This document shows, piece after piece, positions 1-38,505 of a stretch of DNA of 64,000 nt. The stretch lies in the NCBI GenBank assembly GCA_950295325.1, contig OX485803.1:41121554-41185553 (forward strand), read 5' to 3'. A program made the translations under genes and the position numbers. The stretch comes from Polytrichum commune. Its lineage: Eukaryota; Streptophyta; Polytrichopsida; Polytrichales; Polytrichaceae. Within the stretch, counting starts at the first letter, position 1; every line of letters starts with the position of its first letter. The notes below the pieces were generated by a model, which saw only the letters and a program-made list of their open reading frames with translations, made no database searches and was not told the origin of the DNA.

Positions 1-327
1 TAATGGAAATCCATAAATCTATAATCCACCAGAAATACACTTGGTAGGTCAAATTTAGTTTTTATAGATGATGAGGTTCTACATGAGTGCAATAAGTTGA
101 TGTTAGTTTGCTGCTCATTGTTTTCCTACCTGAATAGAGGTATCTACTCATTGGATTGCTTTCTCATTACTGCAAAGATGTTTGAAAAAAATTCTTGAAC
201 TCGCAGCTTCAATTAGATGTGAGCTAAGTTTATTTCACTGAGCTGATACATATGTCCTGCTGTTTGAACCAGCCGGAATGATGAAGTATGTCTATTTTAT
301 CAGCTCACTGAGACATTCCATTTGCAG
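1..327 (+). other. Partial intron of the METTL13-like gene
   Basis: No coding exon is visible here. The stretch ends in a good 3' splice site (TTTGCAG, last base 327) directly before the first visible exon, so it is read as the tail of an intron. The promoter and N-terminal exons lie outside the window. Confidence 0.7.
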
Positions 328-3300: not shown

Positions 3301-6300
3301 AATTTGAAGGGAAATGATTTATTTTTTGTCGGAGTAGAGCCCTCTACAGTATGTCCATGTACTTGCACATGATGAACACCACTCATTACAATTAATGTGC
3401 AGCCTTTGTTTGAGCAGCTTTGTCTGCACAAGAAGCATATTGGACATGCAAGTTGATGAACATTATAAACCCTTGCATTGGTGGACTATTTAAGTGTATG
3501 TGTATTTTTCTGCGCCTGCCTGAAGGATGCGCAGGAGTGGCAGGCACGGTCTAGGTTGGCAAGCATTTGAGCCCAGCCTAGATATTTCAAAGGACCTGTG
3601 TACTAATATTTGCTATGCTATTTTAATAATAAATGTCAAATGTGTTGCAGATCAGAGTTATGGTGGTAGGACTAGGGGCAGGCTTGCTACCTATGTTCAT
3701 ACACAATCATCTCCCTGTTCATCATATCCAGGTGCCTCAGCTCACTGGACTGTGAAATTATACATTTGCAGTCAACTATCTTTTATGCTGCATGGAACTT
3801 ATATACAGGACCTTGATAGCTACCTTTTGTTCATGTTGTCTTTGCTCTTTCTTAAAGAGCTACTTAGATAGCTCTTTCTTAGATTTCTTTGATAGCTGCA
3901 GTTTATTATTGGTGTACTTGTTCTTCTTAGATCCAGTGTCATGTGTCATCGTTGCTGTAGTGTTTTTCATCTTCTAGTGGCGTTTACTATTCTGGCCATT
4001 CAGATCCAGTAGGATATATCATAGACAATATGATGGTTTTTGAAACATAGTACTATCCTTGAATAGGTTTCTCATACCCTAACCTTATCTATACTGACAC
4101 TGTTTTGTGAGATAATATATGCACAGCCTGTAGATTGGTATTTAAAGGAGTGCAGATTGTGAGTTTAACAGCTTATGGGTGTTTATGTTGCTGAAGCATG
4201 AATGAGTTTTATGATAGTGTTAAATCTTTTACAATCTGCTCCCAATACTCAGCCTTTGTCATCTGGTGTCACTCAGGTTGTTGAACTGGATGGTGTGATT
4301 GGAGAACTTGCAAAGCGCCACTTTGGGTTTGTTGAAAATGATCGCATGAAGGTATTGTATATTCTCCCTCCATAGTTCTTGGTTAGGGGTGTGGAGATTA
4401 TACTACGTGTAATGACACTAGCTTGAACATGTGCTGTCCTGGCCTGTTGCACCTGTGGATATGATCTAATATCCCAGGCCACCCAACCTCCTAAGTCCAT
4501 GCAACCTTATGTCTCCATGCCCATGTGTACCAAACCATGGCCATCACCTCCCCTGGGTTTCACCTCTCCTCACCTTTTGTGCATCCACGGTCCCCTCACA
4601 TTGCCATCTTTGTTTTCCTCTCTTCTTTTGTCACATGTTTGTTCTTTTCTGGAATCTTTGACATGTGACCTTTCTTTTGGAAATGTTTCACTTGAACAGC
4701 AGTGAATGGTGGGTGATGGCCTCATCACCACCACGTTCTCTGTTGTATATACATTGTGTTGCCATTCCACTAAAGATGGTGATATGTTGAATCTATGCAG
4801 CTTTCTGTTGGGGATGGTATAAAAGCAGTGCATGCAATTGCTGAGACAGTTAGTAAGCAGAGTCAAGAACCTGATTCCTCAGATACTTCCAGAAATGCCA
4901 CTAAGCCAAAGAGTGTGATGCACGGGAATGAAACAAGTCCAACTGTTTCGAAAGTTTCAGACAGTCTGACTAAGATGCATATCAGTGAAGACCAGAGGTT
5001 GCATGTTTTGATCATTGATGCCGATGCAGGAGATGCAAGGTATATGATCAGATTCATTATATCCTTTTGTTCAAGTTAATTCTGACAATGTATGCCATCA
5101 ATGTTGCTTTCTCAGTTTGTGCATATCTTCACAAGCCAATGCACTGGATCATGATGAGTAGATCTTTTCATGGTTCTTTCAGCAGATCATATTTTTCCTA
5201 ACATTGTTTTAGGGGCGCTTCACACTAGCTTCAGGACCTGTGACCATTGGAATCTTAAATCTTCATGGAAAATGTGAAGATTGTCCCACTTCACTAAACA
5301 CTAGAGCTTGAGAGCCTAATAGACCAAGTGAGTTTGAGTGGATGAAAAACCTAAATGGAGTCGTACATGGCATACAATGGATGATGTTTAGTGGCCTACT
5401 GGATTTTGCGTCAACCCTACTTTGAAGAGGTAGATGTAACAAAAACCAGGAGACCATGACACTTGAAAATCTCACAACCCTGGATATGCTATAACTTTTT
5501 GTGTAGAAGGGTCCATATGAATAGGACAGCAATGAAGTAGCATTGGGTTGAGAGCCCGGTCATGTATGATTCTACACTACCTTGAAGGCTCATGACCACA
5601 CAAAATTCAATTTCAATTTTCCATTGTACAGGCTTCAGATTAGTTTCAAGAGCTCCCACAATTTCATGGTCGTGGACCTTGGCTGTATAATTGGCCCTTA
5701 ATTGTCTTTTGTCACCCAATCTTTTTTGTATAAGCAAGCTTGTTGATCACCGCTGGTACTAAATGACAATGTTCCATTACGGTATGGTGTTGGGGTATTG
5801 TGTCTACTAGCTTGGAGATGAGCTGTCCACCTCAAGGTTTTCTGGAAGCATCCTTCATCAAGGCAGCAAAGGCAGCTTTAACAGAAGATGGTATCCTGGC
5901 CATCAATGTGGTGTCACGAGCCACAGGCCCCCGTCTCACAGCAATATCAAAGCTCCAGAAGGTAGGAAAATGACAGACTGGCTTTATTTTCTTATTTGTA
6001 CATGAATTTTTGTTGCTGTTTCAAATGATAAAACTTATGAGAAGTTGTGAAGTATAGCAATCCTCTGTATCATTCGAATGACTGATCTCGGGCACTACAA
6101 ATTGCACTGATGATTAATTTACATGTAGCACTATAATGACTTGTACTTCCAAAATATTCATCCTCAGAACTTTCAGAACGTCCTTTCCGGAGAATTAAAT
6201 GTGAAAGTGCTCATTGCATGAAGATATCTTCAATGGTAAGAACTTCGGATGTAGCATGCATGTAGTATAAATATGTGTTGATCAGATTGACTAATAACAT

Positions 6301-6532
6301 CTGTATGTTGTAGGTCTTTGAGGAGGTATATGAAATGAAGCTTGACCCAGATGTGAATCGGATCCTTTTTGCCCTTCCGTGCAAAAGTACAGAATTGTCT
6401 GTCCCAAATATTGAAGCTGCAGCATCGACATTGAAAGCGTTGGCTTCAAACTTCGCATCCTGGAAAAATGGTCCATCCTTGGAAGAGTTTTTGATTCCAG
6501 ACAACTTTAGGCTTATTCCCAGATCTGTATGA
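328..6532 (+). CDS. METTL13: METTL13-like eEF1A lysine/N-terminal methyltransferase, C-terminal part (5' truncated)
   Basis: Twelve exons: 328-588, 833-916, 1355-1402, 2012-2076, 2337-2385, 2543-2789, 3041-3159, 3651-3731, 4277-4351, 4801-5039, 5811-5961 and 6314-6532. All have GT-AG borders and phases that keep one frame, giving the last 545 residues before TGA at 6530. METTL13 proteins carry two SAM-dependent methyltransferase domains that methylate elongation factor eEF1A. Seen here are the family signature RAHEWLFSTEEGQW, a linker with ITGTIKVEDVV, a basic GKGKKKGRGK segment, then the C-terminal Rossmann fold. That fold has the SAM loop GLGAG (about residues 298-302), an acidic strand end VVELD, VLIIDAD and LTEDGILAINVVSR. 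The N-terminal methyltransferase domain must lie upstream. The protein is likely cytosolic. Family assignment is strong; the exact modified residue is not shown by the sequence. Confidence 0.9.
1509..1833 (+). repeat. R2 dispersed repeat, copy 1 (METTL13 intron)
   Basis: It shares a long diverged block with 20048-20360 and 62560-62871. All three copies run from a TTGGATTGG-like or comparable start through an AGCAATTGCGAA-like stretch to a shared end near GGTGTCC; copies 1 and 2 also share CCTTGCCATATACCA. It lies in the intron between exons 1355-1402 and 2012-2076. No coding capacity is seen. Confidence 0.65.
5211..5702 (+). mobile_element. R4 hAT-like non-autonomous element, copy 1 (METTL13 intron)
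   Basis: This sits in the intron between exons 4801-5039 and 5811-5961. It is about 490 bp with degraded ends (AGGGGCGCTTCACACTA at the left, TTGGCCCTTA at the right). Internal blocks (GTACATGGCATACAATGGATG, CAGGAGACCATGACAC, GGTTGAGAGCCCGGTCATGT) recur at 48748-49155 and, inverted, at 41084-41436. There is no transposase. The hAT label rests only on the style of the ends. Confidence 0.6.
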
Positions 6533-8429: not shown

Positions 8430-11400
8430 CTAACTCCAGCCCAACCCAGTCCGACCACTGTTGCCTTGAGCCAAGACAGGGTCAATCAAACCTCCTTCAC
8501 CAGTCCCTAATGATTGTCCCTGGAACAGAGAGTAAAATTACAAGATGTCAGCCACAGACCATGGTAGTATAGATTAGACAACCAGAGAGTACCATATGTG
8601 ATAGGCAGGTTTGGCACAAATCGATTCAGATTTTGAGCAAACTGCCACATGTCACTTTTCTATTAAATCAAATCTGGAAAAAAAACCATGTGTCACCTTA
8701 AAAAATGAGCATTTTGGCACCTATAGGTAGTCATGAAGTAGGATATGCATAACCTCTATGTTGCCTCTTAAGTCACCCTATAGAATAGAGAGGTTGAGGT
8801 CTCCAAGAAAGGAGCCTTCTATTTGGTGGAAAAGGGCCTTTCACACATGCTTGTTCACACAAATCCACTTTACGCTGAGCTTTCAACTTGAGAGCTTTAG
8901 ACTTTTACTAGGCTTACAATGCTTAGATGGTGCTTTGATGTATCGGAAGTGGAACAATTTCCAGACATTTTTGGCAATCTGTGTCAAAAATCCTAACCTA
9001 ACTCCATAAGGTAGTTTAGGATTGTTGAGAGTTTATGCTCTCATTTTGTGGGCCCCAAGCCAATGGGCTTTCAAGCATTCTTTGGGTTGTCATGAATGCT
9101 CCTTTGTTTAGTATCATTCGAAAGCATGGTCACTTTACAGTTGCTCAAACTGTTTAAAGCTTGAAGATGGGTCAAGCTCTCAATAGTTTCACCTCTGGAC
9201 GAAAGCTTGTGAACTCCACGTTTCAAACTCCCAGAAATTGCAAGTTTTAAGATCACAACTTGAGCTCTAGTGCAAAGGGGGCCTAAGTAATGACCATGAC
9301 TATCAATTTGGAAAAACCGTGTTCCACAAAGATCAATACTATTGAATGGTGTAGAGGAAAATATCCCAAACCATGCAAAGAGTTCAACATCAACTTTAGG
9401 GTTTAGAGTTCAAGCTGTGAATAGTTTGAGCTTTGGATGGAAGCTTGTCAACTCCAAGTATCAAACTCCCAAAGCTCTAGTGTGAAGGTGGCCCTAATGA
9501 AGGATTACAAATTGCAGAAAGTAAAGTCGAGGAAAAGCAGGTTTTACTTACCTCTTTCCAGCCCATGCCCTCCAACATGCGCTTTCCCACATTATCTCTG
9601 CCTATAGGCCGTGCCATAGCAGTTTTGGCCAGGACAGCTGGCATTTGTGTGGCTGCGTCTGCTTCCTGCTTCTCAAGTTCACGCTCAGAAACATACTTTT
9701 GTCCAGGTCCTATCCCAATACCCTTGTGCAAGGTTCTTCTCTCAGCAGCCCGATCTCTGTATCTTTGTTTTCTCTGTAACAGAAGAGAATGTTTTTGGTT
9801 ACCACCCAACAGAAGAATGTTAAATTGCTTTTTATTCAGAACATTCATAGACTAAAAAATATCCAGAGTTGTATTGCAATTACAACATTTTTTAGGAAAT
9901 TTAGCCCAGAATGACAAGTGAAACATCATCTGGGATATGGGTTGATGTAAGGATAAAACTCTGGATAAATATAGTACACATACCTGCTCTATTTCGGCAA
10001 TTTCCTCTTTGGTAAGAGTTTGCAATGAAGTACCCATGCTAGATCGCTGAGTTCTCTACAGATCATTCAACTGCTTGTTAGTAATGAAGATTACCACTCA
10101 CTCAGCTTGTGATTTACCTTCTAAGCAAACAAGTGGACCAAAGTAGAGGTGAAAATTCTTGTTACATGCTTTTATTAAACTGCCTGAAAGATTCTTTAAG
10201 AGGACAGATGGACATGAAATATACAAAATTCATGTGCTACCTTGTTGACTGAACCAAGTTGATACTTCCAGTGCCCAAGATTTGGAACAAAAGGCTTTGA
10301 TACCACCACTGCATCAATTGTTTCGTCCTTCGACAAGGCACCCGTTGTTACACTGTCAAAGTCTTGTGCCTCAACAGAAATAATTGGGAAACCCCAATCT
10401 TGTGTCGGATTAGACGAATCACAGGCCGTGGACATTGACAACTGTTTTGAACTTGGCCGATGTAGTTTGTATATCCTGCCTGCCAAAGTAAATTGTAAAC
10501 TACATTCACCATAGGATGAATCTCTTCCAGAAAGGTATGGACAAGCTTAATAAAGAAAAATCTCACTACGCTGAAAGGAATGTTTAGCAAAGGTTTGTAT
10601 CGAACCTGATGAGACCTTCACAAAATTATGATCTGCTTCAAATACAGGAGTAGTACGAATTAGACCGCCTGACCCGCCCAGTGATGGATGAACTTGCGAT
10701 GAATTGGGAGCCAACCTCCCAACCAACCGAACAATACTTCTTGTAGGCTTCCTTTTTTTATTTTCCTTCACCTGCTCAACTTTAGTCCAGTCCCAAAGAT
10801 CTATAGAACCAACATACGACCGCTTCTTCGATTTCGTTGCTTGCAAATATTGTGTTTGCCAATGTTCTTCCTCTGTGACCCGAAGTGCAGATGGATCTAG
10901 TTGATTCTCACTTGACTCCATAAAACTCTCAGCTGACTGAAAATTCTCTCCATTAGGATCTTTCTCCAAAAGCAATCGTCCTCCATCGGGGTCCTCAATT
11001 GAAGCAGCACTAACTTCTTCAACCATCCCAAGAAATTTTGAGTCAATAGAAAAACACTCCACTTGGATCCCAATCTCATTTAGGATTACTCTACACTATG
11101 GCTAAAGGCCATGACCATGAAAATGTAAGGGTCGTTGAACCTCATCGGAAGTCCATATCCTGGAAAATTGAAATTAGATTTTGTATATAGTGGAATGGGG
11201 TGGCCCTGACCAATAAGAGATTCTAAACTCCAGTGGTCACCAGCCCTCAAACTCTAGAAGAAAGTGCTCCTAGACACACTCGGTGACAGTAATCAGTGCT
11301 GTAAGTCGTCTGCCCTTTCAGATTATCAACAACAAAAGTAGGAAAAAAGCAGATAGAAGAGGTTAAACCCTAAACCTGCTTGTTCCAGGATGGCATCTTG

Positions 11401-13980
11401 TTCTTCCCGTAATTCACCTTCTTCTATCTCATCAAAATCCGCAAAGTTATAGTTCTCCAATTCACCCTCTTCTGGTCTCCACTCACCCTCTTCAAGCTCT
11501 TCACTTTCTTCATCGGACTGCGCTGACCCAAGTGAACATTAGAAAAAACAGAAAGAAAGCATGGAAATTAGATATCTGTACATACATAGATAGATAGATA
11601 TAAATAAAACGCTGCCACAAAAGGAACATTTGAAGCACAGAAGGTATGGCATCCGCATAACAAAACATAGACACCATCAAAACTCACAAACTTACCCCTC
11701 ACCTCATACAGCTCATTTTCAAGTGTTCCATGTTGTTTATGGGCCTCCACATCATTCCAAGCATTAGCATCTTGCCACTCGTAATGTGGTTCTTGCAGAG
11801 TTTTTACACCATCATCATTGTCAATCCAATTGTAATTGTAGGTTTTCTCAATGTCGTTCCCTGCTGTCACATCTGATTGATAGTACAAATGCTGCAAAGC
11901 AGAATCTTCATGTACATTTAGGTCTTCTCTCTCAGGATCTGTCCTGATGGTATTCTGTGAGTACAGTTCTGTCAGCGTTTCCTCGATCCTGTTCAAGTTT
12001 GAGAACATATTCAGGAGTTAACCTTTTGATATTGAAAAAAGAAGTAAAAAGAAGCGTGAGCTGGTGAAGTTGTCCTTCAACTCAATGAGACTCTTCGTAG
12101 GGAGTCGGTCCCCTATGTTTTCTCGTTAGTTGGTTTGCATACAACATCAACGACTTCTGTCAACTTGCGGTGCATGATCAGAGGTAGTGATTGAATTTGA
12201 ATAAAGAGCAACCGATTCCAGTTCTTTCAGGTCCAAACTCATGTAAGCACCTCTTGGCATGCCAAAATTGATTTGACCCTCAATGAACTGATATAAAATG
12301 TTCATTGTACAGACCAGTGTCCAGGGAGGTTTTTGGGCTAAATTGGTCAAAATCCAGTGTTTTTCCAAGTCCAACAGGTTACATGTTGTGATCTTTTAGC
12401 TTTTCTGTATTAATTTGAGGTATATTTCATAGATTCCTCTAAAATGATTGGTAATTTTCCTGAAGTCTTAAACTTCAACCGGTGATTTCTCTAACTCAAC
12501 CAGTTCATCTGTAAGTAGCGGTCGGTTCTCCCTGTTCATTGATACAAACCTCCAGACCACCTCCAAATATGCACTGCAAGCTTAACGAACATGGAAGGTA
12601 TTGTATGCAAAATACCAACTCCCAGCCAGAAGCCATGTTGAGTTAGAGGACAATTCTAGGGTACATGCAAAAATTAAACTAAAGTAATTCAGGGTTGGTG
12701 CAACCTACCAAACTGAAGGTGGTCGAGTATCCTCTAACTCCCCAGGTTCCCCCTCTTTCACGCTATTTGTACTAGCACCTCCTGCAGCAACTTCCGTATG
12801 TGTTTCATTTTGAAGTACCCTTCCAGGCAAGGAATCCTCTAGGAATTCTGATGCACTTTCTGAATGATCAAGACCTTGACTTGGCCACTGGCTGTACCAG
12901 CCTAGACGTGTGGAGTCCTTGGTAATAAGATCTTTTGCTTCTTGGGGTGCTTGGCAGGTCCCACCTTCTTCAGTTGTTGCACAGACATGGGGTTCAGGGC
13001 AATTGGAGACTGAGGACGTGACTTTCGGGATCTTTTGTGTATGCTCTACTTGAGGTTCTTCCTTATGATGGGATTCGGCACCACTACTACTGTCTGCTGC
13101 TGCCTGATTTGCATCACCACCAACACCTGCAATTCGCGAGAAAAATCAGCAACTATAGATATCAAATGCATCCTATGACACCTTAATTTTGAGGTGCGCA
13201 ATAGGAAACATGTGTCTATTCACCATCTATGGCTACATCAAGATTCACCAAGTGATCTCCAGCCATAAACAAATACATGAACAATTGATGTGGAGACTTT
13301 ATACAAGCCAATGCAGCATTAGGTTTATTTTATCTACAGGAGCAACTTCATTCCTCTATGTCCTGGGCAGCATCTTGGTGATCATGTTATAGCGATTGGC
13401 TATTATGGATCATATGCATCCTATGATATCTTAAACCTTGAGGTGTGCAATAGGAAGGATATTGGACATGTGTCCATTTCACAATATCTAGGTGCACCCA
13501 GGTTCAGGAAGTAATTTCGAGCAATAATTACAAACAATTGATGACGTTGAGATTATTGAAGTCGATGTTATTGCATCAGTCTAAATCCTAAACTTCATTC
13601 CTCTGTGTCAGGAGCAGCACCTTGGTGATTGACGTCATCGTCATTGGTTGATGCAACAAGTGGTACATAAGCACCATTGTCAAATATGTAGTATTGACCA
13701 TCTTGTGTGTTGTAATACCAGCCCTCTTTAGCGTCATAATAGAATCCAGAGCTGCATGGTCACAAAAACTCCTAATTAGGCATAACACAAATCCTGGAAT
13801 GTTGCCACGCAGAAAGAAACTGAGTGATGTCACAAGAGGATTACATTTGAGATTGAGAGATTTGTGATGTGTGTGATGGACGAAGAATTACCTGGCATGG
13901 TAGTAGAGGCCTGAAGAGGGATCCAAAACGAAATTGGTGTCAGAGTCCGCCTCAGAAGCCAACGTGTCTGTTCCTTCCAT
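8430..13980 (-). CDS. OCRE and G-patch domain protein (plant D111/G-patch, AGGF1-like)
   Basis: Ten exons read from high to low coordinate: 13980-13892, 13751-13621, 13126-12709, 11988-11703, 11517-11376, 11088-10606, 10479-10241, 10055-9984, 9773-9552 and 8519-8430. The sum is 2172 nt, or 723 aa, with continuous phase. The N terminus (about residues 19-70) is an OCRE domain: aromatic octamers such as SGLYYHAS, SGFYYDAK, EGWYYNTQ and GQYYIFDN. A long acidic, low-complexity middle follows, then a block with DLWDW and VRLVGRL, then QRYRDRAAERR. A G-patch spans the last two exons (about 677-723; GKRMLEGMGWKE joined to GQSLGTGEGG). Proteins of this type bind RNA or splicing factors and act in the nucleus; a role in pre-mRNA processing is inferred. 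No FHA domain was recognised, so it is not a full AGGF1. The exon at 11088 has the least certain acceptor. Confidence 0.88.
12310..12545. repeat. Copy of the 42.1-42.6 kb repeat in an OCRE gene intron
   Basis: This lies in the intron between exons 12709-13126 and 11703-11988. It shares TTCCAAGTCCAACAGGTTACATG, TTAATTTGAGGTATATT and one unit of the CTTCAACCGGTGATTTCTCT / CAGTTCATCTGTAA type with 42105-42600, where that unit is tandemly repeated. The 75-codon open frame across it looks like chance coding. Confidence 0.6.
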
Positions 13981-14430: not shown

Positions 14431-16740
14431 TTTTTTTCAAACCTTTTGACGGCTGTTAAAAGCTTGGAGCACGTGAAATACTTAACTCAGGTGAGTAACC
14501 AACGACCAAGTCCTCATGCAAACATCAAAAAACCCTTCAAATTTCACCTTCAAAACCAGTGAGAGTAAACCCAAAACCCTTGAAGACCGCGGAAGGCACC
14601 AAATGAACAGATGACCACATCATCATTATTTAACTGAAATGAGGAAAAGCCTGGTCCATGGGAAATCTCTCTGCCGCCGGGCTCAAATCCTGATAGAAAA
14701 CCATGACGACGACATTCTCAAGAAACGCGTGGTGGCATCGTTGAGGGGGAAATTCTTCGGCAGCGGCGGGTGCCCTGTTCCGAATCATCATCTATCTTAC
14801 ACCCTCAATTTTTGTCTTCACAATCACGTGAGTCGGTGAGGAGTCTGGCTCGCCGGGACTTCCAAGTGTGACTCCACTCAAGTCATTTTTAAGTGACAAC
14901 TTACCATGTGACAACCAACTTACATGTGGAATTGGTGATGCATGAGGGGGAGTGCATTATGGGGAACAAGGAAATCGTGCTAGTAGCCGAATGCATGCAT
15001 TACCGAATGTAAAGGTCCAAGGAATGATTTCAACAGTTGCGATCTGTTGGAAAAACGTAATGCCTTGGTCTAGAAACATAATGCACTTAATCTACGTGGG
15101 GTGAATTACACAAAGTAAGGGTACCTCTGATTACAATGGGAAATTCAACTTGGGTCTTTACAATTCCCCGATTGCCTTTCACGTTCTGCATTAGCATCCG
15201 TCTAATTCTAGAGCACAAAGTCTAAGGATGATTGAACGTCGTGACACGAGGATTCAGTCCTTGGACATGAAGAAGGAATTATCCCATACAAGCGACTGTG
15301 CCTCTCACCTAGTGTGCAACATGAAAACTTGACCCTTATAGGTTTTTGTTTGGCCGATTCATTTCAATAAGTTGGAGGAGAATAATTTGGGATTTTAAAA
15401 AACTAACTTTGGTGTTGAATCAACTAAATAAAGCAATTTATGGGTTTCGTACTATTTCAGGGTTCTTGTGTTGGGTGCATGAGAGGTATGTTTGTATGTA
15501 GTAATTCCTTGTGTCCTTCAGACATCAACGTTGCAAGGCAAAATGTTGCTTGGCTCCAAATGGAGAGGACGATAGTAGGGAGGGCATTTTGTCAAGGGAA
15601 GATACGACTAACTCTTCTAGTCGTAATAGCCCACTTACACACGCCAAATATCCGAAGTTTCGGAATATCAAGGACCCTCTTGCTGGTTAGGACTTGGGAT
15701 CCCGTGTGAAGTGGTAAGTCCCAACTTCCATGCTATCAATGGCTGAGATTGCATGAATTGACCTTGAGTAACTTAGGAGTTAGGACTTGGGATGTTGTAT
15801 GAGTTGGCCTTTATCATGGTCCGGGATCATTGTTGCTTGACAACCATACTAGATTTGTGATTGTTGTCATAATGATAAGTGTCAAGTGTTATTTGGTTCA
15901 TTTTGTCATCTTCTCCAACTTATACTGATAAAATCTACACAATAAAACTTGTGTTGCATTAGCAGATATATGATGATGCATCTGTAGAAAATGAGCTTCC
16001 CCATGATTTAGTTGTTGGATATTGGAAGTGCATGTTTGTTGATTATTTCACTAAATCCATAGGTCCTTCCAAATCACGTGCGTCAATTGACGTGCAATTT
16101 ATTTTTGTGCAAGTTTTTGCATGTCAAATGTCAAAAACTTGCAAAAACTTTGTAAAAAATACACACTGCTTGGGACCGCATGTGAACCGGCCCTAAAATG
16201 ACGATGAGAAAGATTTGATCAAAAGTATCAACATTGTCGGAACTTGCTCCCGGCCATAAAGTGAGCTTTTCGGATCATTACGTAACGGTTTTTTGGGTCT
16301 CCTCATCACTTTCTGGCAGGGATGCAACGAAGGTGCAATCGAAGGTGCAATCGAAGGTGCAATCTTCTGGAACAACGTGTCGGAGAAGAACATGTGTCAA
16401 AGGGCGAAGGATTCCCACCGAATTTCAGCCAATATATGCTCAAATTATCCTGATTCGGAGCTTTCACGAGTCACCTGATCCCCTGTGGACTTCGAATTCA
16501 CACACCACGACACTACCTGCGCATGCATCCTACACTTGGCCCTTCCAAATCGAAAGATACGTGACATCGACATTCACAGAACTTAAGGTTATATCAAGCT
16601 CCTGTGAAGGCATCCAAGTGTTTGTTTGTCGCTCCTCAGTTAAGTTAGTCGTTTTCGTTTGCATTCCAGTTCCATTTCTTGGGGAGGTTATGAAACTCAG
16701 CGCTCGGTAGAGAACTTGCCGAATCTGCCTGCAATACTTA
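14431..16740. other. Divergent intergenic/promoter region between OCRE and reductase genes
   Basis: There is no convincing gene. The - strand promoter of the OCRE gene should lie near 14.4-15 kb and the + strand promoter of the reductase near 16-16.8 kb. Open frames at 15440-15709 and 16234-16710 show no recognisable domain. A three-copy 12-bp repeat lies at 16328-16363. Confidence 0.55.
16328..16363 (+). repeat. 12-bp tandem repeat, three copies
   Basis: CGAAGGTGCAAT is repeated three times without interruption, about 450 bp upstream of the reductase start codon. Confidence 0.9.
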
Positions 16741-16760
16741 GTAGCAAAGCTTGACTCACA

Positions 16761-16800: not shown

Positions 16801-21154
<4,354 letters not shown>

Positions 21155-23141: not shown

Positions 23142-25725
23142 TTAATTCATCTGCCGTATGAGGCTGTTCAACATGTCCTCCCTATCTCCCGTATCACCAG
23201 ATTCTACAGAGTTATTCCTTAACTTCTTCAGACCTCCTACTGGACAACTCAACTTGAATGGCAATAAGAAGTTGTTGGCTTCCTTGAAATGAGGTCCCAC
23301 AGTGTTAATCTCATGAACAAGGTCTTCAACACAGATGATACCATGTTTACCAAGAGCCTGCACAGTTTCATCGAAATAGCCCTGTTAAGCCAAGGTTCAT
23401 CTAAACATACTAACAACATTCAATGACGGCAACAGGGAATTACACATGCTCTTAGAAAGAGTACATTATGTCACATCATATAGTTCCACTCCATAGGGTG
23501 CCAGCCATACATCAAATGACACTTCTCAACCTATATACATCATACAATTCATCAGCCCACTAAACAGAGCTACTTTATACAACTGAATTCAACTAAATTC
23601 AAATGCATCAACAGAAGACGTCAGTTTGGGATTAAACTTGAAATTGGGTGTACCTTTTCAATAATGGTGTTGTCTGTTAGAGCAGTGCAAGACTTTCCAA
23701 CCTTTCCATGCCCACGCTTGTAAATCAGCTCCCTAACACTCTTCAAGTTGGGGTATCTGCAGAAAATACAGCACATTAGTTGATAATATCATCTGCTTTC
23801 ACTATCAGACCAAAGACAAAGCACTGAATACCACAAAAAAATATAAATCAATACAACTGTGCCATCACCACAGGCTGCTTACCCATAAGTCACATATGGC
23901 TCCACCTTGCGTAACATACTGAGAGTAGCTGTGTTCGCCTTCATAAACACCCCATGGAAAGTCTGATTCACATCAACAAAGACACACTGAGTCACTGCAG
24001 CTTAAAACTCATTACCTCTGCAACTCATGGCTAGTAGATGCAACAAACACAATGACTTCATGAGATCAACTTTCAGGTGCACAGTGGTCGGACAGAATTC
24101 AAATCAGGCGCCTCCACTCAAGACCTGAATACTTTGGGGATGCAGATTGCACCTGTTTTAGACGCAGTAGTTGCATGATCTTTCTCGTCTTGGGGTGCAT
24201 GTCATTGACTCTGAAAACAAATCATACCAGTCTGTATTCAGCTTTGTCCAGCTCCACCACATCACACCACATCCTACCTAAAAGGGCCAGAATAAAAATT
24301 ACCACTGCAATGCTGCTCCTAGACTCCATATATTTGATGCAAATTAGAGAGAAAACAACAACCAGTGTTACCTATATGCCAAGAAGTAGTATTGCTGTAC
24401 TTTAGTCAACACTGTGACCACGTCATCCAATCATGGCATACTTGGATTGCAGAAAAAAGAAACTCTTACCCACGAATTCTGATGACAAACATAAGCTTGG
24501 CCTCAGGCTCCACATAGAACCTACCCTTGAGCTTGACTTCCTTCTTTAGCCTGATTAAATCGTTCTCCTGACTCAACACAGGAGAGGTCTGGTCAGCAGG
24601 GTGACCATCAGAGGCGTGACTAACAGCTGACCAAAATTGACACTTCAGTGATCATCGCTCAGGCATTAAGGTATGCGAGCCTTACTCGGACACTTCACCT
24701 ATATTGTAGTGGTGTGTGGTCAGGGGTGGATTTAAGAATGGACAGAGAAAAGACATGCACTTTAAAAAGATTGGACTACACGCCATTCTAGGCTCAATAG
24801 TCAACATTATTGGGGGGGGGCTATATGACCATTTAAAGAGCCCGAGAATCCTCACTTTCATAACGAATAAGATATTCATATGAGCTCCAAAAATTATGAT
24901 GAAAATGGCTACGGCCACAATTTGCTTTTGTCAATCATCTCGCACTACTTGTCTGTTACATATCCTACAAGAAGTGGGTGCAGAGCTAGAAGTGTCCATT
25001 TAAAAATCCTTAAAAATCCTGGGGTGAGTCAGCATAAAACCTACACACATAAGCCCTAGAAAACCCCTGGTAATACTTTCCGCTGCTATTGGCGACTGGA
25101 TACCAACATTCATTACACCACCGAATTCACGGAAAATTACCTGCCCTCGACACTCCGTGATGAATTCCTCCGCTCCGCTTGACCACTATGACTTATATGA
25201 CCATTTAATGTGCTCAAGAACATTCACTTTGATAATGCATAAGATATTCATATGAGCTCCAGAAATTATGAGTCTTGGGCCACAATTTGAATTTGTCAAT
25301 CACCTCGCATTATTTATGCGTTTCATATCCTACGAGAAGTGGGTGCAGAGCTAAAATTGTCTATTAAAGGCCCACTTACCTTCCCAGAATCCTACAAAAT
25401 TCTGCGGTGATACACCATGAACCTACAAACAAAACCCTAAATAAACCCTGCTAATCCTTTCCGCTGATGTTTTCGCGACTGGATACCAGCACGAATTCAA
25501 TGCACCACTGATTTCAGACCAAATTACCTGCCCTCGGTACTGCTTGATGAATTCCTCCGCTCGCTTGAAAACGACCCCGCGGTTCTTGGCGTTCTTGGCC
25601 TTGGAGGACTCCAGCTGCTCTTTGCGGTTGATGGCCCACTGCTCGTTGAGCTTGCGCTTCTTAAGCAGAGTCTCTGGCACAACCTTGACAGGGATTGGGA
25701 CATTCTCGGCCTCCATGTCTGCCAT
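23142..25725 (-). CDS. RPL7: 60S ribosomal protein L7 (uL30), cytosolic
   Basis: Six exons, high to low: 25725-25528, 24567-24470, 24210-24153, 23962-23883, 23756-23654 and 23381-23142. They sum to 777 nt, 258 aa, with phase kept throughout. uL30 is a large-subunit component that binds 28S rRNA. Seen are the basic N-terminal helix ([27 protein letters not shown]), [82 protein letters not shown] and [16 protein letters not shown], ending in NSLIRQMN. Length and order match eukaryotic L7. The start codon at 25725 has MADMEAE and is the first ATG after a pyrimidine-rich leader. Intron 1 is enlarged by a tandem duplication that copied part of exon 1. Confidence 0.97.
24725..25570. repeat. Tandem duplication covering RPL7 intron 1 and the end of exon 1, with R1 sequence
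   Basis: Two units, about 24725-25186 and 25187-25570, align along most of their length: TATATGACCATTTAA, AAGATATTCATATGAGCTCC, AAGAAGTGGGTGCAGAGCTA, then TTTCCGCTG, GCGACTGGATACCA, AATTACCTGCCCTCG and GATGAATTCCTCCGCTC. The first part of each unit is R1 repeat; the last part is RPL7 intron 1 start plus the end of exon 1. A run of G at 24811-24820 lies at the usual R1 position in the first unit. Confidence 0.8.
25141..25185 (-). pseudogene. Duplicated relic of the end of RPL7 exon 1, still in frame
   Basis: On the - strand the relic reads [12 protein letters not shown] and is followed by the same donor (CAG/GTAATTT), against [12 protein letters not shown] in the real exon. A possible acceptor (TCATAG) just upstream would define a 45-nt exon 25185-25141 that keeps the frame and adds [15 protein letters not shown] to the protein. 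The acceptor lacks a strong pyrimidine tract, so use is doubtful. Confidence 0.6.
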
Positions 25726-25958
25726 GATCGTAAGTTTAAGAGGAAAGGAACGCTGCGTCCGTCGTCGGAGAAGCTCCGGAGCTCTCCTCGGAAAGAATTT
25801 TTCACAGGGCTCACATCCGACTTCAAACCCTAATTCCAGCACGGGTTCAACGGGCCGGGCCGGGTAGGGGGATCGAGTAACCCTGCCATCTCCACGGGTA
25901 TCATTAAATTGCCTCTCTCCTCTAAGCTCGTTACTTGGGACGACGCCCCATGCTTATT

Positions 25959-26883: not shown

Positions 26884-28960
26884 TACACCCAAAGCATGTA
26901 AAATAAGCAGGTCTTGAACGGACACTTTCATTTCTCCACCTACTTCTTGTAGGATATAAACACACAATTAGTGTGTGAGGATTTGCATAAGGTGCATGGG
27001 TCTTAAGTGGCTCATTTTCTTAATTGGACCCCTAGATTTGATTGGTATGTGGTTCAGTGAGGTCAAAGAGCAAACATCATAAGACACATGTTTAAAAGAG
27101 ATTGGACTACATTGTTAGTTATCAATAATTACTCTACACTAAATAGGTAGTGAACACACTTGGGAGGACTTATATATCCAATTAAGAAATCGATAAGCAT
27201 GCAATCCGATAACCATAACTAAATTAGGGGAGGACAATTTTTTGCATATGTTTTATTGTAGATTTGCTATTGCAACATGAGTTTTGTTGTGTAAATCTCA
27301 TCCGTAGAAGTTGGCGAACATGAAAAATGAACCAAATAACACCTACATGCCTTATCCAAATCATGTGTTGTAGCCATGTTTCCATAACCTATGGAGTTCA
27401 TGTAGATATTAGTTTTCATGTATACAAGTGAAGATTCTTGAGGTTCTAGATGAGCATATATAGCACTCTCCCCATTATGATTGTTGAGCTTAAAACGATT
27501 CAAAAGTTTGAGCACAAGTCCAATCTCTTTTAAACACATGTTTTGTTGGCTTTTGTCCTTAGATCTACACCTGACCACACACCACTTACATATAGTTGCT
27601 TTTCTTTTTTGAAAAAAAACATTGATCAAGAATCACACGCTTAAGTCATTTTTCATGGGGAAGAGGGGGGAAGAGATTATGAACCACATGACATCAAGTT
27701 TCTAAAATGAGGTGGATGTGTTTGAATCTATGGTACACCCTAAGAAACTTCACATGGAGGGAAAATCAAGGCAAATCTCTTCCTAAAGGAAATTCTAGGC
27801 CACATGAATTGCTCTTTCACATTGTTTTCCCAAGTTCTACTCAATAGTTTCTTAAGAAACTATAAACTCTTTAAAGAGGCCATCAGTTAAGGTTGGGAGA
27901 AAATTGTTCAAGAATCGGATGATCCACAATGTCCCCATTCTCAAGTACTACAACCAAATGTTGTTGAACTCATGAAGGTTTTCATGCCATTAGGCCCCCA
28001 AACATCACATTAAGGTAAGTGGGTTAAGGTAAGCTACGATTTGTTGATAAGACAATCCTAGTAGAGTTATCCACAACAGTCTTCATATCAAATTCCAAGT
28101 GATTTGGTTGAAAGGTGAATTTAAGGACTTAAAATAAAAAAACTTATACGATTACGCATCCAAAATGGACACCTATATTTGAGTGATGTATGGTTTGTTG
28201 AGACCTACAGGATCATTCCAAGATAAAGAGACTCTTTATAATGATAATGAATAAGATATTCATATGAGCTCCAAAGCTATGAGAAAAATGGCAACATCCA
28301 CGATTTGGATTCACTAATTATCTTTTACTAATCGCATGTTCCATATCTTACCTAAAAGTGTCCACAAAAGACCCACTCACTAGCGTGTTGAAATTGCGAC
28401 TCTTCGATAATCACAAGCTTTCTTTGTTGCCACGTGTCGTGTCAAGGGAATTCTGTGGAAGGCCACCTTTTGTCGTGGATGCTTCCGGACACTTCCAATT
28501 GCTCCAATTTGCTTTGTCCCCACGCATTCTGTCGCTCGGAATTTGCAGTTGAAATTGCGGTGCCTAGGGTTTCATAAGTAATCGCAGTCTGCGTGGATTG
28601 CAGAGGTTCTGGCGTTTACGAATTCGGAGACACATGAGTGTGTGCTGCTCTAAGAGTTTTAATTCAACAAGTTACAGATTCAGCTTTGGTTGCATTTGAG
28701 CGCGCAGTGTATAATTTTCCTAGCTCGCAGGTTTTGGAAGAGTGCAAGGTTTCGTTTGAGGTCGTCTTCGGAGTCGGGTGGTGCTGTTGATGTCGATGTT
28801 GCAAATCTTATCGGGGTGAGGGAGGATCTTTTTTTCGATTTCGTTGTGGAGGTGTGAGCCTGCTTATTTCATCGACCAGCACAGAGTAGTTCCTGCACCG
28901 AATTGCTCTCTTTTAGAGTTCTTGAGTTCATTGTAGCTGGAGTTTTAGAGCTTAATAGCC
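26884..28960. other. Intergenic region upstream of the CHCH gene
   Basis: This is mostly repeat debris. R1 pieces lie near 27025-27170 (TTTAAAAGAGATTGGACTAC) and 28160-28370 (GGACACCTATATTTGAGTGA, AAGATATTCATATGAGCTCC). From about 28380 the base composition becomes more GC-balanced and should contain the promoter and 5' UTR of the CHCH gene. The 120-codon - strand frame at 27267-27629 has no recognisable domain. Confidence 0.55.
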
Positions 28961-29407
28961 ATGCCTAGGAACCGGAGCTCAGGACGCTCGATGCGACCTG
29001 TATCGCGTGCTCCGCCGCCTGCACCCGTGCAACGAACGCCTCCTCCAGCTCCGTTACAACAAAGTTCTAATGGACGAGGAGGCTTTGGGAGCGTCATTGC
29101 GGACGGCATGGCGTTCGGCACAGGGAGCGCCGTTGCGCACCGGGCGGTGGACTCCATCATGGGACCGCGGACCGTGCAACACGAACACGTTCAAGGGAGT
29201 CAGACGACACCATCATCTTCAGGGGCAGCATCATCTTCTGTGAACAATTCTTCGTCGCAGGATGTGTGCATCAATCAAGCCAAAGCCTTCGAGGATTGCT
29301 TGCGTGCGAACTTGGACGACATAGGCAAATGCCAGTTCTATGTCGACATGCTAAACGAATGCCGGAGACGTCCTCAAAGCTCTAACACTTCTTCAGACTG
29401 GTCATGA
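28961..29407 (+). CDS. Twin-CX9C CHCH-domain mitochondrial protein (CHCHD2/MIX17-like)
   Basis: Uninterrupted 148-aa frame. The N terminus is rich in Arg, Pro and Ala (MPRNRSSGRSMRPVSR, PPPAP), then a Gly/Ala segment (GFGSVIADGMAFGTGSAVAH, RAVDSIMG) typical of the CHCHD2/CHCHD10/Mix17 family. A Ser-rich linker follows, then a perfect C-terminal twin CX9C helical hairpin with C103, C113, C124 and C134. Such proteins enter the intermembrane space by oxidative folding on Mia40 and support respiratory complexes and cristae. Location and role are inferred from the family. The ATG at 28961 is the only plausible start. The coding region has no intron; a leader intron cannot be excluded. A broken duplicate of its 3' end lies about 370 bp downstream. 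Confidence 0.9.
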   Translation: MPRNRSSGRSMRPVSRAPPPAPVQRTPPPAPLQQSSNGRGGFGSVIADGMAFGTGSAVAHRAVDSIMGPRTVQHEHVQGSQTTPSSSGAASSSVNNSSSQDVCINQAKAFEDCLRANLDDIGKCQFYVDMLNECRRRPQSSNTSSDWS

Positions 29408-31846: not shown

Positions 31847-32438
31847 TCAATAAGGATTTGGTAGTCTCAGATCCAAGTGAAATTTGCTTGTTTTACGTGT
31901 TGGGGGCTTGTAGAAACTGTCACATTCACCAAAGAAAGTGTCAATGTCTATTCTATAAGGGCTAATGAATGAAACGAAACTGATTTTAAAAGTCCAGGAA
32001 GCCAAAAGGCTGACATTGAGATAGAGGCTAATATCACCTTGTTGGTCAAATTGAAAGGAAGACTTGAGACTCCCTAAAATTACATTCTCATATACTGATG
32101 TAATGGAATTATATAGAGGACACTCCAACACAAAGTGTGCCTCATTTTCAACTACATTATTTGTGGTAGAATTTGTTGTCTCTAGATGTAGGGATAGTCG
32201 ACCATCGTCCAATTTCAATGATTTTGAGGTGCGGTAAGCAACATTTGATACTTGAGAGACATTGGCCAATATCTCCAAGCATCAATCCAATTATTCCTGA
32301 AACTTGAAACATTGTAAACCACATGAAGGAATGGAATGGGGTTCTAAAGTCGCATGAAAGGAATTGAGGTCGCAAACCCACCTCTTTGGAAACCTGCCGC
32401 TTGCATGACTCATAATCCCCCCAAAGTCGAACAAACAT
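31847..32438 (-). mobile_element. Decayed non-LTR retrotransposon remnant (C-terminal ORF2 region)
   Basis: On the - strand a 143-codon frame (32278-31847) contains ENEAHFVLECPLYNSI followed by a segment with LGSLKSSFQF and ISLYL. This resembles the conserved E-x-E-x-HFL-x-CP-x-Y block at the end of LINE-type reverse transcriptases. An overlapping shifted frame (32438-32157) holds more of the region, so frameshifts are present. No reverse transcriptase core motif is seen. Confidence 0.55.
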
Positions 32439-32778: not shown

Positions 32779-35700
32779 TCAAGAAGACAAAAAAGGTGTT
32801 GTAGGCTCCATAATTGGAGCATGGAAGGCCGGGATGGTGAAAACAAGGCCAGCCTGAAACTAGGAGAGCCTATATACGTCTGTCGGCAACACCATAGCCC
32901 GTGTTTCAGGACTCTTGGGTACTTGTGATGAGCTAAGCCACTCATATAGCGCTTGACCCCGGTAGAGAAACTGCACAAATTCAAACCAAGTCGTAAATAA
33001 ACCTACAATGTAAAAAGGGACAGTGACACTATCCTCTGCCAGCATGCATGACAGGCACAGAAGTCACACCAAAAACTTAAATACTTCTCTGTTGGCACGA
33101 AATGCAAGCTGAGGAGGTCATTGAGTAGTATCTGCCACTACAAAATGACAAAGAAGCCATTGGGCCAAACTTACAGCATGCTGTTTGCTGAGTGTTGCAC
33201 TTCGATGAATAACCGCTACAACATCTGGTGAGATTGTACCATTCTGCATGTAGTAAAGACCAAAAAAATGAGACCAAAATCCAAAGACCTACACAGTGAG
33301 AATATGAAAGACAAGTAAACGTGCAAGCTGCAGTAAGGCTGACAAGGACTTACAGGACACAAGAGGGGCTCCAACGTGATACAGCAGATGGGAGTGGCAT
33401 GTTGAAGGCTTTGTTGGAATGGTTCTGGATAACAAGACCCCAGCAATGGGATTTCCGCACTCCCCATTAAGGCTGTCAGTACAGCTCGTCGTACCTGCAA
33501 TTACATGCAATTCAAAATGAAGTCAGCAAAAAGGCACAGAGTATAAACTTTGAGCATTTTCTGCTCTCAGGCAGAGAATACAGGAAGTTGAAAGTCTGAC
33601 TATTATAAACTGCAGGTGAAGGTGCAGAATGATTACTGCTAGACATTATTAGACCACATTTGACTTCTATACTACATATTATTATTTATCTCTACATAAA
33701 AGCAATGATGCTCAACCCGAGAAATGATTTTCACAGCTGCAGTGTACTTTGTACTTTTACTAGAGAACAAATTTCTACCAATGAAGTGCTAATTTGAGAT
33801 CATGCAAGTGACAGACCATAAACATAAAGGTCAATCCCCTTGAGCTTCTCAAGCAGTGTTATTGACCACTTCCAACTGACCCAGAGACCACTGACACCAA
33901 CATACTACTGATAAAATAACATGAATGGAACAGATCTCAAACCAGTTTAGACTTTACCAGTGATGGCATGGCGGCTACATAAGCTTGCTCAAGACAAAAA
34001 CCCCGATACAAAACTTGGGCTACCCTTGTCTGCTCATGAGGCATCTGCAGATCACACACCTCGACATCCATAAGCTCATGCCAGCAACTGTATTTCGTTT
34101 TTGTAGTCGTTATTTCTACTTCAATGCAACATTGACGACTACAGACGACAAGAAAATGTGATCAACACTAGATCAGTCCTTATTTTAAATATGACAAGAC
34201 TGCAATTAACTACACTGATTACATGATTTCGTGTCACTCACTATTTGGAGTTACATAATGCTATAACATTTTTATATAGACTTCAAATTTTACAAACAAC
34301 GTGAATATAGGCAGTTTGGACATTAAAAAGCACAAAAGAATTTACTTGGTGAGACATTACATTCTAAGTAGAAATTATAGCACTACGTAACTCCAGGTAA
34401 TCTGTAACACTAAATACCATTAGCAGTGTAGTGTATACAAAAATTCAGTGTCCAAAGTGTTTAACTCCTCCAATAATCTACGTACTTGCAATATACTGGA
34501 AGGTGCAGCCTCAACATCAGTGTCAGAAGACTTTGAATCTGCTTGAAGTGTTGAGTTGTTGCAAACGATACCAGCTATGATCTCCATCTGTGTTGAGAAA
34601 ATCACATCAATAAATGTCTAGAGGGTTGGAAAAGTCCCAACATATTTAAAGTTCGAACACATTACCACAGATTCTCAAGCAACACATAAAAGTCTAGGCC
34701 ACTACATTTGCTAGCCCATCAAGCAACCAGAAGAGATAATAGGACTAACGGTTTGAGTACAAACATACCAAATAACCGAACAATAAGCCAGTGTCCTGGT
34801 TTGGACATGCTAGAGCTACAAGCCCCCTGCACATGCAGTAAAAGCTGATTCAGAATCTTCCGGCAAAGTATGGAAACTAAGCAGAACACTATGATGCAAT
34901 ATAGTTATATACAATGACTGTTTTAATGGATGTTGATCAACAAATGATTGTAATTCCACAAAGAGTAGCATGATAATCAATCAAGACTGGTTGTATACCT
35001 CATGACACGAGGATCCAAGGCACGTTGCCACATCAGCTGATCCAATGCTCTTGTCAACAACGGCTGCACATAATGTGGAGGGTTCAGAAACCAGAATAAT
35101 TAAAATCAAAAGTGACTAATCTGATTTCTAAATTGAATCAAATGACTCCAAACAAAAAGTGCTCAGGTAGAATCTCTGAAGTGCGATAGAAAATGGTTGA
35201 AATCAAAAAGCACATAGTAGCCAGATGTATTCACACAGGAGGAATTTACCTCCAGCTGAGCTTGTTGCCGACAATTCAACCTTGGATTCAATAAAACCTG
35301 AACAGCCCATAAAAAACAACTTAGCACTTCCCCCAGAAACGAGGAACATACAACATTAAGCTTTTCCTACACCCCACTCACTATCTGTCCAGGGTATATT
35401 GATTCACTACCATACAAAGGAACAGAGCTTTGTGTATAATCTCAGGAAATGAGTATCCTTGTAATAGTTGTGTTATATCCATTTTTTTAAAGTCAAGAAC
35501 TGAGGATATATCAACATCAATTTTCTGAAGCACTTTTCCTGCCTGAGAAAACCCAGGCTTAGAAAATGTTCAATCACTAAAAAAGAAATATAAAGTAATC
35601 GTACCAGAAGGTGTAATATATAGATCACACACATACACATATACCTCTCCTCCCCCCACAGACACACACACACAAACACAGTCTCTGAAAGTTCTCAAAA

Positions 35701-37364
35701 CCCCTCCAACATGAAAGAAAAACTTACCATGAGCTTCAGAAGCCTGTACAACCATATCCACCCACACCAATATCGAGGAATTAGCTCCATGTAGATTGAA
35801 CAAAACTCTTGAGAGATCTCTCAATAAAGTAAAAATCTATGAAACTTATCATGATTAAAAAAAATGTGAAACCATGGTGCAGGACCTGATTCCTGACAAT
35901 AATGACATTCTCTCCATAATAGACATACTAGAAGTGGTCCAATTTCTGGACTACATCAAAGTTGACTATTTGGGATGTCACGGAATACACATAATCTACG
36001 CCTATGTGCACGCTTGAATGGACCACATATGTCATGTTAATGGACTCTTAACAGGTACATGCACCTTTCTGGTACAACAAATTCCATATACTCTTGACAA
36101 AAACAACCAGCCTGTTGACAACATGGAATGCTCTCCATGCTACTAAAAGAGTCTTTGGAAAGTAGAAACTTACTTTTGCACAACGAACCCCACACTCCAT
36201 TGTCGAGCAAGTTTATAAACTACACCATACAAGTCCTCCACCTGCATACAAATTATAGATATGAGCTCAGCTGGTCCAGGAAACTCCATGTTCGTATTAC
36301 GAGTCATTCTCAACCCTTTTGAGCCTATGATTTCTTAATATCTGAAAATTTTGATCTTCTCAAGGACTCCATGGCACCTCAATCCCTCTCTAGCAGATCC
36401 TAACATCAAAGACAATCTTATATTATATTCAGTATACTCAACATAATCTACGTCAGACACTGTTATTCATTATAAGGCTTAAGTGCAATCCTCTCCCTGA
36501 TTTAATCGACATCAAGGCATACTTGAAGCATAGGGGCTCGCTTACCCGCTTAGAAAGCGTCGAGAACACATACTCCCCTAAACAGAATATGCGAACTGCA
36601 AGAACCAAAAACACATAATAATTAGCTAGTTAGTATCCCAGTCGCCGAAATCACCTGGATCAAAAGGCCTACATGCGAAGCGTTTGTTGGTAGGCATGCC
36701 CCGATACTGTAGACTTCTGACTAAATACAATCTTGAAATATTCGCACACACGTCAACCATAAAACATGGTGAACTTCCCGACACTACCTATGAAGCCACC
36801 CACAATAGGATTAAATTTCAGACAGGATACATATTCAGTTTGGCTATTCTCTGAAGAGATTAATTCCAGAAGGACAGAGATGCAGAGAGCAGAAGAGCTT
36901 CTAGCTCTGCGCACGGCGCTCCCGAGCTCTGCCCGGGCACTAACGTTCCCACACCAAAATGCCCTCCACCGCTTGCGCAAACACTTATAGACACAAGATG
37001 TAGAAAGATCCAAGAGATTTGCACGTGAAGCTGTCCTCGTCTCCAAGACGCTTAATACACTGATCGAATTGTAATTCTGGACTACTCCCGAAGCTTTACG
37101 TCTCCAAACTATGCTGTGATGATTACGAGCTTAACTTGAAGGGAGAACGAATAAGAAACTTAATTGGTGAACTCGGTGTACTAGGAGGATCTTGACTTTT
37201 TTCTTCTTTGTCAGAGATGTTGTATGCAGAGACGGAAGAGCTGAACGCAAGAGTGGACGAGGTTTTCTATCTTAACGAAGATGGAGGAGATAGCATCGAA
37301 ACATAGGAAGCGAAAAAAAACACTTACAATCAGATGCCTCGAAGCCAGAATCGTCAAACTCCAT
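32779..37364 (-). CDS. Unidentified 15-exon gene, predicted 363-aa helical protein
   Basis: I do not recognise this protein. Phase-consistent exons, high to low: 37364-37328, 36595-36546, 36241-36174, a candidate 7-nt microexon 35892-35886, 35836-35728, 35538-35411, 35297-35250, 35063-34999, 34826-34769, 34587-34486, 34044-33958, 33494-33354, 33243-33175, 32970-32923 and 32853-32779, with stop TGA. The total is 1092 nt. All borders are GT-AG. It starts MEFDDSGFEASD, has helix-rich stretches (FTLLRDLSRVLFNLHGANSS, PLLTRALDQLMWQRALDPRV, GLVALACPNQDTGLLFGYL), a polar acidic loop (SKSSDTDVE) and ends APIMEPTTPFLSS. There is no signal peptide, clear membrane span or catalytic motif. The helical style suggests an ARM/HEAT-like scaffold, which is inference. 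The microexon and the last two exons are the weakest parts. Confidence 0.6.
34247..34396. mobile_element. R3 foldback MITE, copy 1 (intron of the unknown gene)
   Basis: A 150-bp foldback whose ends are inverted repeats (GGAGTTACATAATGCTATAA at the left, TTATAGCACTACGTAACTCC at the right). It shares GTTTGGACATTA and CTTGGT with 41906-42062 and with the 49300 region. It lies in the intron between exons 34486-34587 and 33958-34044. Confidence 0.7.
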
Positions 37365-38180
37365 AATCAAACCTTGCCAGATCTCCAGGCTCTAATTAGC
37401 TCCCGTCCTCTTTGAATATCTTTCCCTACTGCGGTCGGTCTCCCAAACAAATAAGGCTCGTCCGCCGCATCATCATCATCACAGTAAAAGTATTGCTTGA
37501 ATATCCACTCCGTCACATAAATGAACTACCTATTCCCAAACCTTTCTCTGTCACTGAATGTCGTCAAGAAGCTGACAAAGCGATCTCTAAAGACCGGGGT
37601 CGAATTAATAAACACAAACGCAGAGTCGTCGCTTTACGGATTGATAACCTATTCTAATTATATACTACGAGTTTGTCAAAACGTCCTTGTCGAATGAATC
37701 GTCAATTTTTGGAAGAAAGAAAGAAAGGCACATTCATTCGCAGATTCACGTTGCAATCACAATTCCCCCCGGCCACACGAGCGTCGCAAACTCTAGTAAC
37801 TCCATTACTTGCAATCCAGAACCGCCATTTATTATTTACTACGGGCACCTCATCAGCTCCTCCTTTCGGCCAAACCTGGATCTCAATCTAAGCTCTTCTT
37901 CTTCCTCAACCGATTCTTGATCCCAGGAGTAGTAAAGCAGAGTGCTACTTATATCCCTTCTTGCGTACAATAATAAATTTTCCAGGGTTGTGCTCATATT
38001 GAAGGCTCTCTTAGAAGCACAATCTTCCCCTGCCGCTGCACTCGATGCCACAGCACCTATTTCAAATTCTCGAAATCCTTAACCAGCCTGAACGCATCCT
38101 TCCTCAAAAATCTCCGAATCTGCCACCACAACCAATCCCGAACGCCGCACCTCCCTTATAACCATCTTCCAAACCTCCTC

Positions 38181-38182
<2 letters not shown>

Positions 38183-38211
<29 letters not shown>
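38183..38211 (+). repeat. CT microsatellite
   Basis: An uninterrupted (CT)n tract about 820 bp upstream of the unknown gene's start codon. Confidence 0.9.
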
Positions 38212-38214
<3 letters not shown>

Positions 38215-38477
38215 CCCTCTCGTCACCCTAATGAAGTCACTTCACCACACAGTTCCGCATTGTTTTATATTCGAGCCATTCATAATTCAATGCTTTCTTG
38301 CGGTTTTCTCAAACACACGTCACCGATTTCCCCCCTGTTTCCGGCAAGCAATAGACTCCAACCACTTCGGGGCACCAAACTTGCCGCCGCGACGTTTGTG
38401 CGGGGCAATTTTTTAATACAAAGAAAGCCAGGGGTATGGCGAAGCGTAGAAGAGCGAGAAGGGGAATTTGGAAAAGA

Positions 38478-38505
38478 CCCGGGGGGCCGGGGGGCCGGGG
38501 GGCCG
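38478..38505 (+). repeat. GGGGGGCC-type tandem repeat
   Basis: Three units of roughly CCGGGGGG in succession inside a GC-rich patch; the G-rich strand could form a quadruplex. Confidence 0.85.

Follow-up and report, generated by a model that had tools for sequence, protein, structure and literature searches.

Arabidopsis PRD2/MPS1, a protein of the MEI4 family, comprises 385 amino acids encoded in ten exons, as given in an excerpt of PMC2735182. For plant FANCC, the excerpted text of PMC10085685 reports that standard similarity searches gave no homology outside plants. Here, these systems are compared with a candidate gene of the moss Polytrichum commune, located on the minus strand of the window, that is, the entire 64,000-nucleotide stretch analyzed (positions 41,121,554 to 41,185,553 of contig OX485803.1). 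Among the described proteins, PRD2/MPS1 was the first to be considered, because of its size and exon number.

Two models of a minus-strand gene

A gene is present at 37364-32779, with exon borders of the GT-AG type, but where these borders are placed depends on the scoring. The gene search combined donor and acceptor matrices with a plant codon table and rules for frame and stop, and dinucleotide shuffles of a 5.3-kb stretch served as the null; neither the matrices nor the codon table were trained on Polytrichum commune. A plus-strand gene was rejected, given that two sliding stretches scored 18.3 and 34.2 on that strand versus 79.2 and 70.6 on the minus strand.

The 14-exon model extends from the ATG at 37364, the first ATG downstream of an in-frame stop, to the TGA at 32779. 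Its 996 nt (331 amino acids plus the stop) form a single frame that is continuous from ATG to stop, without an internal stop or frame change. A 15-exon model shares both ends and includes an additional exon, 33137-33077, with the next exon beginning at 33002, for a total of 1089 nt (363 codons including the stop), also in one frame. This chain, which is probably the one drawn in the preliminary description, exactly reproduces the 15 GT-AG exons and 363 codons in one frame reported there, although at the price of a 37-nt intron (33174-33138); the remaining 13 introns are 69-732 nt long. Plant introns shorter than about 60 nt are unusual. The 14-exon model omits the additional exon and starts the following one at 32970, so that no 37-nt intron is needed. 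It scores slightly higher, with 92.1 versus 90.4 for the 15-exon model at an intron penalty of -12 and 66.1 versus 62.4 at -14. Among the seven tails scored, the 14-exon tail ranked first and the 15-exon tail second at both penalties, with the five others lower; for tails E and G, the lengths are not divisible by three and the frame is lost before the stop, so that their scores are rough.

The exons are listed below in the 5' to 3' direction, together with their agreement with the three best free chains, which are those obtained by free search at penalties of -12, -14 and -16.

37328..37364, minus strand: exon 1, 37 nt, with the start codon; borders identical in two of three free chains
36546..36595, minus strand: exon 2, 50 nt; donor in all three free chains, acceptor in none (36577 used instead)
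36174..36241, minus strand: exon 3, 68 nt; identical in all three free chains
35728..35743, minus strand: exon 4, a micro-exon of 16 nt; acceptor in two of three free chains, where the exon is extended to 35645
35411..35542, minus strand: exon 5, 132 nt; identical in one free chain, with the end at 35416 in the other two
35250..35297, minus strand: exon 6, 48 nt; borders in all three free chains, in a different frame in two
34999..35063, minus strand: exon 7, 65 nt; borders in all three free chains, in a different frame in two
34769..34826, minus strand: exon 8, 58 nt; in one of three free chains (acceptor 7.9, donor 7.9)
34486..34587, minus strand: exon 9, 102 nt; identical in all three free chains, codon score 11.9
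33958..34044, minus strand: exon 10, 87 nt; identical in all three free chains
33354..33494, minus strand: exon 11, 141 nt, tentative; codon score -0.8, borders in none of the free chains
33175..33243, minus strand: exon 12, 69 nt, tentative; donor in two of three free chains, there combined with an acceptor at 33288
33077..33137, minus strand: additional exon of the 15-exon model only, 61 nt, doubtful; preceded by the 37-nt intron
32923..32970, minus strand: exon 13, 48 nt, tentative; weak donor (2.6), begins at 33002 in the 15-exon model
32779..32853, minus strand: exon 14, 75 nt, with the TGA stop; identical in all three free chains

The predicted protein and its family

The protein predicted from the 14-exon model has a mass of 36.8 kDa and a pI of 5.9, and hydropathy analysis revealed no membrane span, as no 19-residue window exceeded 1.6 (maximum, 1.34). 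Chou-Fasman prediction for this model yields 35% helix and 31% strand. The preliminary description suggested that the protein may be helical, which the predictions do not show: exon 5 folded alone yields two helices (mean pLDDT 63.2), whereas exon 11 folded alone yields strands (mean pLDDT 62.6), both being single-sequence folds of low confidence, and the helical moment of the whole model, the signal expected of amphipathic helices, is equalled by 58 of 500 shuffles. Self-comparison with hhalign, a weak test on a single sequence, detected one internal match of 12 residues with a probability of 0.1. A HEAT/ARM repeat protein was rejected on the strength of such single-sequence tests, which are weak in this respect, given that there was no Pfam match and no notable internal repeat.

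Searches against Pfam-A identified no family at E<=10 for the 14-exon model, whether whole or in pieces, or for the 15-exon variant, and earlier splice variants were likewise without a family (one at E<=1). Three further variants were compared with Pfam, namely two of the best free chains and a version of the 14-exon model in which exons 6-7 are read in their second frame; one of these gave no match and the other two matched a phage holin (E=0.24 and 0.084; 11.9 and 13.3 bits against a cut-off of 28.8). Kinship with phage holins was rejected, these sub-threshold matches in two variants being taken as chance. The NCBIfam library, which is prokaryotic, contained no match. Among PDB sequences, there was none at E<=10 for the 14-exon model and none for its earlier forms, and the match of the 15-exon variant to 3kq5 (E=0.36) is not significant. 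A U-box or RING domain in the C-terminal part was also rejected, as three tails matched no Pfam family up to E=10; four PDB matches of a U-box-like tail, at E 0.82-1.6, were judged to be chance. Scans of bacterial and archaeal genomes and of viral contigs produced no confirmed relative, and six short peptides of the 14-exon model did not occur in the literature text searched. As a check of sensitivity, Pfam matched 6 of 20 neighbouring stretches at E<=0.01, these being single exons of neighbouring genes. The statement in the preliminary description that no family could be assigned is thus borne out, as none of the splice variants tried had a noteworthy match in Pfam, NCBIfam or the PDB sequences.

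We consider it about an even chance that the locus is a genuine nuclear gene, rich in introns and probably expressed, whose soluble product acts by binding, as a subunit or adaptor, and belongs to an old plant family outside Pfam and PDB. Under this reading, the product of the minus-strand gene would be slightly acidic, with a mass of about 37 kDa, and would lack both a membrane span detectable by hydropathy and any domain recognized by Pfam. The protein would most likely act by binding, as a subunit of a larger complex or as an adaptor, a mode of action that we propose only because no enzyme was matched. Intron style and the appearance of the neighbouring proteins point to a plant, perhaps a bryophyte, and the family, a probably old plant one, would be absent from Pfam and PDB. 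Many introns and small exons usually mark an old gene, and a coding sequence of about 1 kb interrupted by thirteen introns speaks against recent birth. Since intron-rich genes are usually old, a known family missing from the libraries searched is more likely than a new family.

The preliminary description suggested that the protein may be lineage-specific or fast-evolving. One alternative is accordingly a rapidly evolving gene restricted to its lineage, with no relatives beyond its own group of plants. The lack of Pfam, NCBIfam and PDB-sequence matches is in line with such a gene, but these three libraries also miss old plant families, and thirteen introns would be unusual in a young gene; we therefore regard this explanation as unlikely, if still the best placed of the alternatives. 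An undescribed plant family confined to one lineage, with a fold not in PDB and with thirteen introns retained despite sequence divergence past recognition, appears distinctly improbable.

Exon-level support and the chance of a spurious chain

Of the exons in the best free chains, no more than 8, 7 and 7 are identical to exons of the 14-exon model (penalties -12, -14 and -16, respectively), and the chains differ from it around exons 2-5, 8 and 11-13. The borders of exons 3, 6, 7, 9, 10 and 14 are common to all three chains, whereas the full borders of exons 2, 4, 11, 12 and 13 occur in none of them. Exon 9 has the highest codon score among the exons, obtained from its sole open frame. Exons 6 and 7 are open in two frames, and in the 14-exon model, exon 8 connects them to exon 9; in the second frame, used by two free chains, exon 5 ends at 35416 and exon 8 is skipped, with the frame intact to the stop. 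The splice signals favour the 14-exon reading of exons 5-8, the donor of exon 5 scoring 4.9 in this model versus 2.9 for the alternative ending at 35416. Conversely, the codon scores favour the second frame for exons 6 and 7, with 5.0 and 6.5, respectively, versus 1.2 and 4.9 in the frame of the 14-exon model.

The weakness of the tail, with the low codon score of exon 11 and the poor donor of exon 13, and the need to choose this tail among seven would fit a pseudogene, that is, a decayed gene with surviving splice signals. Against this stands a frame that is open from ATG to stop across all 14 exons, with neither a stop nor a frameshift, and we deem decay improbable.

The preliminary description considered it very unlikely by chance that candidate exons would keep one frame over 363 codons. 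This argument from counts fails: free search yielded at least 14 exons and at least 332 codons in 232 of 500 shuffles at a penalty of -12, in 26 of 500 at -14 and in none of 500 at -16. The scores tell a different story from the counts. The best free chains score 114.5, 82.2 and 61.5 at -12, -14 and -16, respectively, compared to shuffle means of 63.5, 36.9 and 20.3 and maxima of 108.4, 74.0 and 42.1, so that none of the 500 shuffles attained the score of the best free chain at any of the three penalties; with an earlier script that tolerated empty exons, the result was 0 of 200 shuffles at -10, -12 and -14. The fixed 14-exon model scores 92.1, 66.1 and 40.1, values attained by 5, 3 and 2 of the 500 shuffles (-12, -14 and -16). 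Ranked against 411 GTs, 12 of the 13 donors lie no lower than the 88th percentile and the other one lies at the 70th, and all 13 acceptors are at or above the 90th percentile among 348 AGs. Splice-site strength and codon use at the candidate gene, taken together, thus exceed chance. A chance chain of exon-like pieces, with no gene at all, could draw on the frequency of such counts in shuffles and on the few shuffles that reach the fixed model, but given the complete lack of shuffles matching the best free chains and the far lower scores of the opposite strand, we consider it very improbable. The more general lesson is that a long in-frame chain of exons alone is weak evidence, and that splice-site and codon scores must bear the case.

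The following features were observed around the candidate gene.

301-6505, plus strand: multi-exon gene with gene-search scores of 133.1 and 82.9; the stretches tried gave no Pfam match, and we presume a resemblance to METTL13-like proteins
9552-13735, minus strand: long gene with OCRE (E=0.0038) and G-patch (E=0.0078), both under the Pfam curated cut-offs; presumably reminiscent of AGGF1-like proteins
16801-18704, plus strand: gene for an aldo/keto reductase, with Pfam matches in two exons (E=6.7e-7 and 3.6e-13)
23160-23375, minus strand: stretch downstream of the L7-like exon, without a Pfam match at 0.01, which we take to resemble the C-terminus of an L7-like protein
25426-25953, minus strand: ribosomal protein L7-like exon (Pfam Ribosomal_L30_N, E=1.8e-14)
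28949-29404, plus strand: CHCH-domain protein (Pfam CHCH, E=7.4e-9)
31850-32281, minus strand: open stretch of 144 residues directly downstream of the candidate gene, without a Pfam match at 0.01, which we take to be reminiscent of the end of a retroelement protein
38180-38220 and 38478-38500: a (TC)n run and a run of only C and G, respectively, upstream of the start of the candidate gene

No RNA families (at the gathering threshold) or tRNAs were found within the window.

Gene-search scores were computed over the window at a penalty of -14 for 46 strand-windows, two for each of 23 stretches, with the last 400 bases excluded. Scores above 60 were obtained for 10 of the 46 strand-windows, two of which represent the candidate gene (79.2 and 70.6). 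Six of the other eight overlap a same-strand exon that Pfam matched at E<=0.01; the two exceptions lie at the start of the window on the plus strand. None of the 36 lower-scoring strand-windows exceeds 54.5, and among them is the plus strand across the CHCH gene; as this strand scores only 45.5, a low score is no proof against a gene.

Comparison with PRD2, DFO, PRD1 and FANCC

PRD2/MPS1 resembles the candidate protein in size, in its many exons and in having no known domain, but differs in that it has ten exons, compared to 14 in the candidate gene model, and in the lack of a significant sequence match. The sequences of Arabidopsis PRD2, DFO and PRD1 (the C-terminal 508 residues of the latter) were taken from Table 1 of PMC9957857. 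BLASTP against PRD2 gave E=58 with the corrected 14-exon model (E=66 with exon 4 misread), and tblastn of PRD2 on the window did not find the candidate gene, the top match being at 16537-16758 (E=1.4). A gapped Smith-Waterman alignment with PRD2 scored 47, compared to a shuffle mean of 33.5, and was reached by 4 of 300 shuffles; because PRD2 is one of three proteins tried, this result was not counted as evidence of kinship. With no significant similarity by BLASTP or tblastn, kinship with PRD2 was dropped, and even a very distant relationship to meiotic PRD2/MEI4, for which that alignment would speak, is the least probable of the explanations considered here, bordering on negligible. The two other comparisons were likewise rejected: for DFO, BLASTP gave E=33 (with exon 4 misread in the query) and the Smith-Waterman score was reached by 236 of 300 shuffles, and for PRD1/MEI1, the score against the C-terminal 508 residues was reached by 182 of 300 shuffles.

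The candidate protein has no FANCC-type Pfam match, and the lack of a Pfam match bears equally on plant FANCE and FANCF; its likeness to FANCC pertains to description and not to sequences. If it belongs to an ordinary gene that is simply unplaced, it is of little importance beyond annotation. The same blindness of searches that applies to poorly conserved plant complex subunits of the FANCC type, as far as the excerpt of PMC10085685 describes them, may apply to the candidate protein as well, and should it turn out to be a diverged subunit in some essential complex, its identification would close a gap in the plant gene list, as was the case with FANCC according to the same excerpt.
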